A stretch of 64,000 bases of DNA from Pempheris klunzingeri (Eukaryota > Chordata > Actinopteri > Acropomatiformes > Pempheridae): positions 12,139,915 to 12,203,914 of the forward strand of contig NC_092032.1 of the NCBI RefSeq assembly GCF_042242105.1, read 5' to 3'. The notes under the pieces are model-generated. The model was not told the DNA's origin. It did not search any database and saw only the letters and a program-made list of their open reading frames with translations. Made by a program: the position numbers and the translations under genes. Shown in pieces: positions 25,603-29,205 of the stretch (within the stretch, counting starts at the first letter, position 1; the number at the start of each line of letters is the position of its first letter).

Positions 25603-25608
25603 TTTATT
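25603..25608 (-). terminator. Poly(A) signal, polr1d-like gene
   Basis: Minus-strand AATAAA about 340 bases beyond the stop codon at 25950-25952. It is the first canonical signal downstream and gives a plausible 3' UTR. Confidence 0.45.
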
Positions 25609-25949: not shown

Positions 25950-28475
25950 TTACTGGTGCAGTCTGTGTCTGTCTTTGTCTCCGCTCTGACTGTCCCTCCC
26001 ACATCTCCGCTCTCTGTTGTCTCTGTGCCTCCTCTCTTTGTCTCTATCCTGCTTTTTATCTTTGTTATTGCAGCTGTCCCTGTGATGGTGTTTATGGTCT
26101 CTGTGGCCTCCTCCTCCTCCTCCTCCTCCACTGCTCCTGTGATCTCTGGGAGGTGTTCTGCTGCGGTCACGGCTTCCTCGCGGGGAGTCGCTCCTCAGGC
26201 GCCCTCTTGTGGCGGAGAGGCCGGCTCCGGGCGCACCGCTGCGCCGCTGCAGGCCGGTGGAGCGCAGGGTGTTGAGGAGGAAGCGCTTGTTGGTGCTGCG
26301 CAGAGGACACTTCAACCTGACAGAGGAGCGAACAGATACACCGGTTTATTACACTCAGGATTTATTTCAGAGGGATTAGCAACCTTGGGAGTTAAAAAAC
26401 GAACACATTGTGGGTATTTTATAGGCTTATTCCAGTATTAAGTATCTTATTACAATTTTTAGGCCAGCAAATACATAACGATACAGTATATGCCCACCAG
26501 AATCATTATGTATTTCATTGAAGGCTTTGAAATAGCATGTCAATGTAAGACATGTCTTTGTGTTATCTCATGTCGAGAAATAAGATAAAAAGCATATAAA
26601 TTACAATGAATCAATCAATAAATGGGGTAAATTTGATTCATGATCTCAGTGTTTCTAAAATCCTGACTATGACCTCTCATACTAACTCTGAACAGGAGAG
26701 GGCTGGTATCCAGTACACTCTGTACACTGTCCACACTATCATTGGAATTAGCTGCACCACAAACTGGTGCACTGGTTAACACTGTTGCCTCAAAGCAAGA
26801 GCATTCCAGTTTCTAATCTGCTGGGCGGCTGATTTGAACCTGCGGTCTTTCTGTGTGGAGTTTGCATGTTCTCTCTGTGCTTGCGTGGGTTTTCTCCGGG
26901 TGCTCCGGCTTCCTTCCACAGTCCAAAGACATGCAGGTTAGGTTAACTGGTGACTCTAAATTGCCCGTAGGTGTGAGTGTGTTGGCCCTGTGATTGCCTG
27001 GCAACCAGTCCAGGGTTTATCACGCCTCTCGCCAAATGTCAGCTGGAACTGGCTCAAGCTCCCTCGCGACCCTTAAGTATAAACGGTATAGACAATGGAC
27101 GGATGGATGGATGGCCAAACTGAAGTTAGAGACTCATTCCTTTTAAGGCGTATAAAGCTCTGCCTGCTGATATCTGTGATAACGTGTCATTGCGTTAAGA
27201 AGTGTGTGTGTGATGATGACCACTTGGTGTTACTGCATTATCTACTTTTATTAAAGCTGTACATACATAAATCATTTGTTCTCAGGGTTTTCTTGTAGAT
27301 GATATCTAGATCTGAATGAGACGTTCCAAATAAATCCAGCTTCACTGACTGCTGAGTTAGTTTGGCTATTTAAAATTACACATTCACAAAGCGGCAATGA
27401 GCAACAAATATGTAAATAAACAATGTATTTAGCTGGTTATACTATAATTAAATGTTTCAACATTTATCAGTGTCATTATGAAGACAATCTGGGAATGACC
27501 AATAATTACTAACAAAACAATTTTGCCAGCTACAGTCATGTTCACTTCACTCACCTAGGACAGTATAGTAAATTAGTATAACAAACCCATAACTGGACAG
27601 GCCTACACCGATGACACATGATCTCAATTCAGAGAAGAGTAAATGATCGAGTATTGATGGCGTGGGATTCATATGCTTATTCAACTGCAAACAGTAAGAT
27701 TGTTGATTTAAAGAAATGGAGCTGCAAAGCATGCACCTGAAAGGCATCATGTCTGTGGAGCTATCCTTCGTGCTGGGCACGACAAATACAACAAATAGGA
27801 TGGCAGAGAATATAACACAGAAACAAGACAAACTGCACACAGGCTAAATGTGAACACAAGAGAACAAAATCTGCCCCAGTGCAGGGACAGCTAAGCGGAT
27901 AAGTGACAGATGTGTGCAGACTGATACAGATGGCTTGTCAAACACAGCGCTCACCATCCTGCCGGGCCCATGGTCTCTGCCCTCAGCCGGGCCCTGTCAG
28001 TCTCCTTGAGGAGCTCCTCCACTGCACGTCTGCAGAGGCAAACACAGCAAAACATGAGTCATGTGGAGGGGAGGACATGGGGGAGACACGGAGGACGGAG
28101 ATGACACAAAGCTCAAGGGGGAGCCAAGTGGAGGGTAACTAAATGAAGTGAGAGAAAACAAAGTGTAAAGGAGAAAGTGAATCACGAGTTAGTGAATGAG
28201 GAAGAGCGACAGCGTCCTCGTTTGACCCGAGCAGCTGAATCAGCAGAGAAACCTCATTTAGCCGACCTTTGACCACACGGACAGCTAATGTTAGCGGATA
28301 TGGTTGCACATTAAATACAACAGCTGACCGCCAAAAATACCCCTCCTCACTGATGGATGCGGTTTCTGGAGTAAAGCTAGCTAAAGACGCGTGCTAACAG
28401 CAGCTGTAAACGCTAACCGAGGATAATAAAGAGCTGAATAAATACATACTTTTCAAGTTCATTATCCTCTGCCAT
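25950..28475 (-). CDS. polr1d: POLR1D isoform-2-like protein (no RPAC2 core)
   Basis: Exons 28450-28475, 27955-28029 and 25950-26316 join in frame to 155 residues. The N-terminus MAEDNELEKRAVEELLKET, then RAETMGPAGW and KCPLRSTNKRFLLNTL, matches the alternative human POLR1D product (isoform 2, about 122 residues). It does not match the RNA polymerase I/III subunit RPAC2 (isoform 1). The rest is a low-complexity basic tail rich in Arg, Asp, Ser and His (RDRSRTPPRDHRSS; a run of eight Gly; HRDHKHHHRD), resembling RS/RD-type nuclear proteins. The RPAC2 exon with HEEDHTLGN-type sequence is not seen in either intron or between pdx1 and lnx2. Its function is unknown. The gene sits between pdx1 and lnx2, the position of human POLR1D. 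Confidence 0.85.
26760..27116 (+). mobile_element. V-SINE-like tRNA-derived retroposon
   Basis: Lies in intron 2 of the polr1d-like gene. A degenerate tRNA-like head (GCACTGGTTAACACTGTTGC, then GATTTGAACCT as a decayed B box) is followed by the body shared by many fish SINEs. That body reads TGTGTGGAGTTTGCATGTTC, then GTGGGTTTTCTCCGGGTGCT, then ACTCTAAATTGCCCGTAGGT. It ends in a GGATGGATGG tail. Several differences from the usual body suggest it is not recent. Non-autonomous, no coding capacity. Confidence 0.75.
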
Positions 28476-28755: not shown

Positions 28756-29205
28756 AGGTCCCATATTATGTCTAATGCACTCTTTAATGTCTTTTCAATA
28801 TAACTAGTGTGCCTAATGACTATGACAGATAGCCAAACTATGAGAGAGGACCATCTTCTCTATTTCTATCCAGCTCCATTTTTCAGTAAATGGGTGTAAA
28901 TATACACTGTTTAGATTTTGCTCCCCTTATGATGTCATAAGGGGATCTGTCGAACATGTGACATCTGTTTGCTATTCAGCAGGCAGACTGTCCCTACCCA
29001 CTGAAAACCCCCGTAGTCCACCATGCTGCCCCGCTTTGTTTTGCTTAACTAACTCCTGGCAATGCAGTAAAACGGTACATGCAGAAAGAGGCTGAAAAAA
29101 GCTGCAGCAGCCATGTTTGTTTTTTTAGATTAAACCATGTAAACCTGTTCTAATAGGATCTTCAAATGCAAGTATGAACTTGAGAAAGAGCATAATATGG
29201 GACCT
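28756..29205. mobile_element. Miniature inverted-repeat transposon with TTAA duplication
   Basis: A 450-base element bounded by a perfect 15-base terminal inverted repeat, AGGTCCCATATTATG at 28756-28770 and its complement at 29191-29205. It is flanked on both sides by TTAA (28752-28755 and 29206-29209). There is no transposase frame. TTAA duplication is typical of piggyBac-type transposition, but these ends do not resemble canonical piggyBac ends, so the mobilising enzyme is uncertain. A degenerate copy lies at 13160-13465. Confidence 0.8.

Follow-up and report, generated by a model that had tools for sequence, protein, structure and literature searches.

A free-standing gene for the alternative POLR1D protein in Pempheris klunzingeri and a probable capture of RPAC2 in the mammalian line

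The DNA analyzed here, which we call the window, is a stretch of 64,000 nucleotides from the fish Pempheris klunzingeri. Judged from its sequence, the window contains an intact and complete gene for the alternative protein of POLR1D. The gene lies on contig C21, and our searches of this fish turned up no further copy; RPAC2, the other product of the mammalian POLR1D locus, was likewise found at one locus, on contig C9. We consider it fairly probable (about 0.7) that an RPAC2 cDNA was captured in the mammalian line by an older stand-alone gene, and that the parental RPAC2 beside EDNRB2 was replaced by this copy. Our confidence in this reading has been trimmed by conflicting exon labels for the human gene. 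The genome searches covered this fish; the evidence on birds and mammals came from published papers (gene names in the case of birds) and from the PDB.

Structure, product, and neighbors of the window gene

Joining of the exons produced a three-exon gene on the reverse strand (25950-28475) with GT/AG borders, two phase 2 introns, and a TAA stop at 25950, and the joined exons form a single open frame of 155 amino acids. Exon 1 (28450..28475, reverse strand) encodes MAEDNELEK and ends at a phase 2 donor, GTATGT. On the basis of its splice border and the N terminus of human RPAC2, exon 1 is similar to the first exon that in mammals serves RPAC2 as well. Intron 1 (28030..28449, reverse strand) has 420 bases, and no RPAC2 exon was found in it by profile, protein, and tblastn searches. 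Exon 2 (27955..28029, reverse strand), which was identified by its splice borders and the genome match with a provisional human protein sequence, carries RAVEELLKETDRARLRAETMGPAGW and is in phase 2 at both ends. Intron 2 (26317..27954, reverse strand), delimited by its splice borders, contains an interspersed repeat at about 26780-27130. Exon 3 (25950..26316, reverse strand) carries LKCPLRSTNKRFLLNTL, followed by a Gly-rich, RS/RD-like tail up to the TAA stop. A candidate polyadenylation signal, AATAAA, was spotted by eye about 340 bases past the stop (25603..25608, reverse strand). Upstream of the gene, a MITE-like element of 448 bp, whose 14-base ends (GGTCCCATATTATG) are perfect inverted copies of each other, occupies 28757..29204, about 280 bases from the start codon, a position from which it could influence the promoter of the window gene.

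The encoded protein was compared with the human POLR1D alternative isoform, using a provisional human sequence as the query. With this sequence, 37 of 54 residues were identical in an ungapped alignment of residues 1-54. The N-terminal module, with the motifs ETMGP.GW and KCPL.STNKRF, spans all three exons of the window gene. The original prediction that the shared first exon and the isoform 2 exons are intact at this locus thus agreed with the joined frame, the splice borders, and the match to the provisional human isoform, and the expanded Gly-rich, RD/RS-like tail that it had described was evident from the composition of the last 100 residues (23 R, 15 G, 12 D, and 11 S).

The same start module and motifs are found in the human and mouse POLR1D alternative product (UniProt P0DPB5, "isoform 2"; accession as given in PMC12249828). 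While the mammalian alternative product shares exon 1 and the promoter with RPAC2, the fish gene stands alone, and the tail of the fish protein is longer and is rich in Gly, Arg, and Asp compared with that of the mammalian product.

A Pfam search with the window protein returned no family at E values up to 1, and RNA_pol_L_2 was therefore absent from the Pfam result; the 43-residue core of the protein also matched no Pfam family. A sequence search of the PDB returned six chains with E values from 0.043 to 8.7, and in the three chains for which an alignment was given, the matches were confined to Gly/His-rich ends. There is, at the level of primary sequence, no ground for calling this protein a polymerase subunit. 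As a tentative suggestion, to which we give somewhat less than an even chance, the conserved module of about 54 residues might be a binding module that, together with a disordered RS/RD tail, makes the protein a small nuclear factor of the RNA-processing type rather than a polymerase subunit.

A 66-residue query from the fish protein gave three matches in the genome of this fish (646 Mb in 439 contigs). Two of them were exons 2 and 3 of the window gene, and the third lay on contig C12 (E 4.4). The C12 match, with 41% identity over 29 amino acids, was taken as chance and not as a second gene copy. With the provisional human protein, four matches were obtained in the whole genome. One was window exon 2 (E 5.1e-4), the others had E values of 0.55, 3.3, and 6.1, and window exon 3 did not appear among them. 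No second copy of the alternative-protein gene or of RPAC2 was found genome-wide by searches that a diverged copy could escape.

Peptide anchors placed the window gene in the order FLT3-URAD-PDX1-[gene]-LNX2-GTF3A-USP12-GPR12, between PDX1 and LNX2. The names of these anchors were assigned by eye, except for URAD, which was identified by its OHCU decarboxylase domain. The anchors were an FLT3-like kinase at 17.0 kb (forward strand), URAD at 20.2 kb (forward), the PDX1 homeodomain at 21.2 kb (reverse), LNX2 at 32.6 kb (forward), the GTF3A zinc fingers at 42.1 kb (reverse), USP12 at 54.3 kb (forward), and GPR12 at 61.7 kb (forward). We take this order to be that of human 13q12, and on this human order, the mammalian alternative product has the same neighbors as the window gene. 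PDX1 was the sole homeodomain detected by motif in the window, and neither GSX1 nor CDX2, its neighbors on either side in the human ParaHox cluster, was seen around PDX1 (window 20.0-32.5 kb). This fits the breakup of the ParaHox cluster in teleosts.

RPAC2 as a separate gene on contig C9

The original prediction had also held that no RPAC2 exon can be read in the introns or flanks of the window gene and had proposed tBLASTn of RPAC2 against the locus and the genome. A whole-genome search with the Pfam Rpb3/Rpb11 family hit C9 twice and C2 once (three matches in all), and the human RPAC2 sequence from the PDB returned four, comprising the three larger exons of a gene on C9 and the same match on C2. 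The C2 match was rejected as RPAC2; it reads by eye as POLR2J/RPB11 and was weak with human RPAC2 (E 0.19). In a tblastn search of the window with fish RPAC2, seven hits were obtained at E values up to 5, the best at E 1.4; one of the seven, in intron 2 (27435-27503), was a 23-residue match of 39% identity at E 1.9. A laxer run against the window yielded 99 hits, the best at E 0.13. As predicted, none of these searches revealed an RPAC2 exon in the window, and the genome search with human RPAC2 led to the gene on C9.

Fish RPAC2 (C9:5344975-5349264, reverse strand) encodes 114 amino acids in five exons, whose coding lengths are 39, 98, 77, 83, and 48 bases. Two of its introns follow codons 13 and 99, and the other two interrupt codons 46 and 72. 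The protein starts with its own Met, and an in-frame TGA lies two codons 5' of the ATG. The RNA_pol_L_2 domain was found in it by Pfam at E 1.5e-27. Fish RPAC2 (AC19, the Pol I/III subunit) and the window gene together cover the output of mammalian POLR1D. The two fish proteins are unrelated: RPAC2 is encoded on another contig by five exons with its own start, and RNA_pol_L_2 is present only in RPAC2.

The original prediction had explained the stand-alone gene by the splitting of an alternative-splice pair after the teleost genome duplication: a single ancestral POLR1D locus made both proteins, and the teleost duplicates kept RPAC2 and the alternative protein, respectively. The presence of one locus per product on different contigs (C21 and C9) is what such a split would leave. 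However, the surroundings of fish RPAC2 gave little sign of it. We searched for a relic of the shared first exon on the RPAC2 strand over 20 kb upstream plus 6 kb, using 20 shuffles per query. The fish exon 1 query scored at best 21/45, within the range of the shuffled maxima (16-27). The provisional human exon 1 query scored 24/50, just over its shuffled maxima (15-21), with a peptide that has no starting Met. These scores provide no convincing sequence relic of the shared first exon near fish RPAC2. When 200 kb around RPAC2 was compared with window frames of at least 30 residues, 20 translated matches passed E 1e-3. Nineteen of them came from the repeat that lies at 26.8-27.1 kb of the window, and the remaining match (30 residues, E 9e-5, window 36,970) reads as nongenic, repeat-like sequence. 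Since all of the matches near RPAC2 were repeats or repeat-like, no window gene was found within the 200 kb by the translated comparison, and no shared neighbors, as expected of sister (3R) regions, were found there. In short translated matches, copies of the intron 2 repeat (26780-27130) in the C9 stretch were 50-86% identical.

Further copies of some window neighbors, which may mark candidate sister regions from the teleost duplication, were found in the genome: USP12-like copies on C6 and C23, LNX-like copies on C6 and at C9:16.39 Mb (of 81 matches, these two were the strong ones outside the window), and GPR12-like copies on C18, C23, C16, and others (12 matches).

The immediate neighbors of fish RPAC2 are an endothelin receptor, whose coding sequence starts at about C9:5333030 (forward strand), and VAMP7 (C9:5350466-5353468, forward strand), which was recognized from six segments that together span residues 1-219 of a provisional human VAMP7 sequence. 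In the PDB, the C9 receptor scored 123.6 bits with type B and 110.3 bits with type A, so that an endothelin-B-type receptor, RPAC2, and VAMP7 adjoin as a trio. The first exon of the receptor had six matches in the genome, five of which (C9, C15, C3, C23, and C10) were endothelin-receptor-like in strength. Identity to human EDNRB was highest for C15 (67/76), followed by C9 (60/76), and the others had 55, 55, and 48 of 76; the C10 copy, with 48/76, was the most divergent of the five. The C9 receptor is called EDNRB2 here by its position, the sequence comparison having been made with human EDNRB. The trio may aid in assigning teleost ednrb2 by position. Farther out, LPAR/P2RY-like receptors were seen by eye on one side, and genes that we take by eye to be MTUS1, PDGFRL, SLC7A2, MTMR7, and MICU3 were seen on the other.

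The same arrangement has been described in birds. A study of the pigeon names "VAMP7, RPAC2, and EDNRB2" as neighbors (PMC10588866), and in the goose, POLR1D is reported to adjoin EDNRB2 (PMC7027040; PMC9640629). Judging by the name used for the pigeon gene and by the gene order in this fish, the goose POLR1D would be RPAC2 and not the second protein. Since the neighborhood of RPAC2 is common to a bird and a teleost, RPAC2 stood there before the teleost duplication, and the VAMP7-RPAC2-EDNRB2 layout of fish and birds looks ancestral. The combined mammalian POLR1D locus is more likely the derived one. We therefore give very little credence to a teleost split, given that the neighbors of fish RPAC2 match the bird place, beyond the reach of any teleost event. 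What held of the original interpretation was the identity of the window gene as a complete gene for the alternative protein without RPAC2; its history as a postduplication split found no support in an RPAC2 gene with its own Met, an in-frame TGA before it, and birdlike VAMP7 and EDNRB2 neighbors.

Origin of the combined mammalian POLR1D locus

The first ten residues of human RPAC2 (PDB 7a6h_K) resemble window exon 1, and Met1 of fish RPAC2 aligns with human Met18. The human N terminus thus looks like the host exon 1 followed by formerly noncoding sequence.

Human POLR1D, at 13q12.2, is described in a review as having three exons (PMC8470852). A clinical paper from 2026 used on genomic DNA a primer pair described as flanking exon 2, and the forward primer, AGGAAGACAGCCCTGGAAAT, corresponds to codons 23-29 (RKTALEM); the same paper places a codon 97 variant in exon 2 (PMC12941230). 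The discussion of that paper, however, assigns the same variant to an "exon 3 cluster," and a second study lists codon 99 under exon 3 (PMC11546311). The differing exon numbers probably reflect the choice of transcript. By alignment, introns 1 to 3 of fish RPAC2 correspond to human codons 29/30, 62, and 88, all of which are inside the span from codon 23 to codon 97, while intron 4 (human codon 115/116) falls beyond it. The primer and exon label of one paper suggest that human codons 23-97 lie in one exon; the exon 2 PCR by itself would be compatible with a short intron.

We propose that the window gene represents the original stand-alone vertebrate gene of the POLR1D isoform 2 protein, and that the ancestral RPAC2 was a separate, intron-bearing gene flanked by VAMP7 and EDNRB2. 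Reverse transcription of an RPAC2 mRNA in the mammalian line would have yielded a copy that was inserted in intron 1 of the stand-alone gene, and a splice acceptor 5' of the old RPAC2 start codon would have joined it in frame to the host first exon. One promoter and one start codon would then serve two unrelated proteins by alternative splicing in mammals, while in fish each protein is presumably made from its own promoter. The parental RPAC2 would later have been lost along with its neighbor EDNRB2. Such a retro-capture predicts that the body is uninterrupted, that the N terminus derives from an exon of the host, and that the gene has a new location in the genome. As expected of a retrogene, mammalian RPAC2 stands in a new place while the outgroups keep the old one, according to the fish DNA and the bird gene names. 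The retroposition, its timing, the order of events, and the absence of a parental RPAC2 from mammals are what we infer, and intron loss in place would give a similar picture.

The farther neighbors of fish RPAC2 bear on an older origin. We take MTUS1, PDGFRL, SLC7A2, MTMR7, and MICU3 to form the human 8p22 block, presumably a 2R relative of 13q12, and these genes, named by eye, may leave room for an older duplication with differential loss. A combined locus from before 2R would then have been duplicated, with fish and birds keeping RPAC2 on the copy beside VAMP7 and EDNRB2 and mammals keeping both products on 13q12 with the RPAC2 introns lost. We consider this unlikely, because it requires that at least three introns were lost, that fish and birds underwent their losses independently, and that the shared exon vanished without a clear trace upstream of fish RPAC2.

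A published reading explains the two products of POLR1D by overprinting. In the mouse, the two products have only the start in common, and RPAC2 was assigned to phylostratum 2 and the other product to phylostratum 5 (PMC3616865); from this paper, we also infer that the mammalian RPAC2 exon lies in the counterpart of window intron 1. Although these ages accord with overprinting, the stand-alone fish gene and the deep age of the second protein better fit an independent old gene. Moreover, when window exons 2 and 3 were compared with both strands of 200 kb around fish RPAC2, the best scores were 25/128 and 30/108, which fall in the range of the maxima that 20 one-strand shuffles gave (22-37 for exon 2 and 26-42 for exon 3). 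We regard overprinting as highly unlikely. What is seen in this fish and in birds suggests the opposite of the published reading (Neme & Tautz 2013), namely an old independent gene into which RPAC2 moved.

The capture of RPAC2 by the older gene may also be connected to the loss of EDNRB2. EDNRB2 is reported to have been lost in therians and also in Cypriniformes and to have been kept in monotremes, birds, a lizard, and many fishes (PMC12346172, PMC5039696, PMC3900529, and the pigeon paper, PMC10588866). Possibly, the parental RPAC2 became dispensable through the capture in stem therians, and a single deletion beside VAMP7 removed both the parent and EDNRB2; this part of the history is rather doubtful.

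Retrogenes captured by a host intron and first exon are a kind already known, and those whose parent has been lost are called orphan retrogenes. Mammalian RPAC2 would be like them in its apparently single-exon body, its N terminus from a host exon, and the disappearance of EDNRB2 from the place of the parent. It would differ from typical orphan retrogenes in being an essential polymerase subunit that shares the host promoter. In a literature search that had most subscription journals outside it, we found no published statement that RPAC2 moved into an older gene and no description of POLR1D as a retrogene, including in the retrocopy and orphan-retrogene papers among the matches listed.

Implications for POLR1D

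In mammals, POLR1D alleles in exon 1 or the promoter should affect two unrelated proteins together. The fish layout, with two genes on separate contigs, makes the role of the alternative protein, and its share in POLR1D disease, testable apart from RPAC2. If the retro-capture is true, a published example of overprinting would be inverted, with a testable tie to the therian loss of EDNRB2. On the more doubtful reading with a single deletion beside VAMP7, the loss of this pigment cell receptor would be linked to the relocation of an essential RNA polymerase subunit, and the human Treacher Collins gene POLR1D would be an orphan retrogene on an older host gene.
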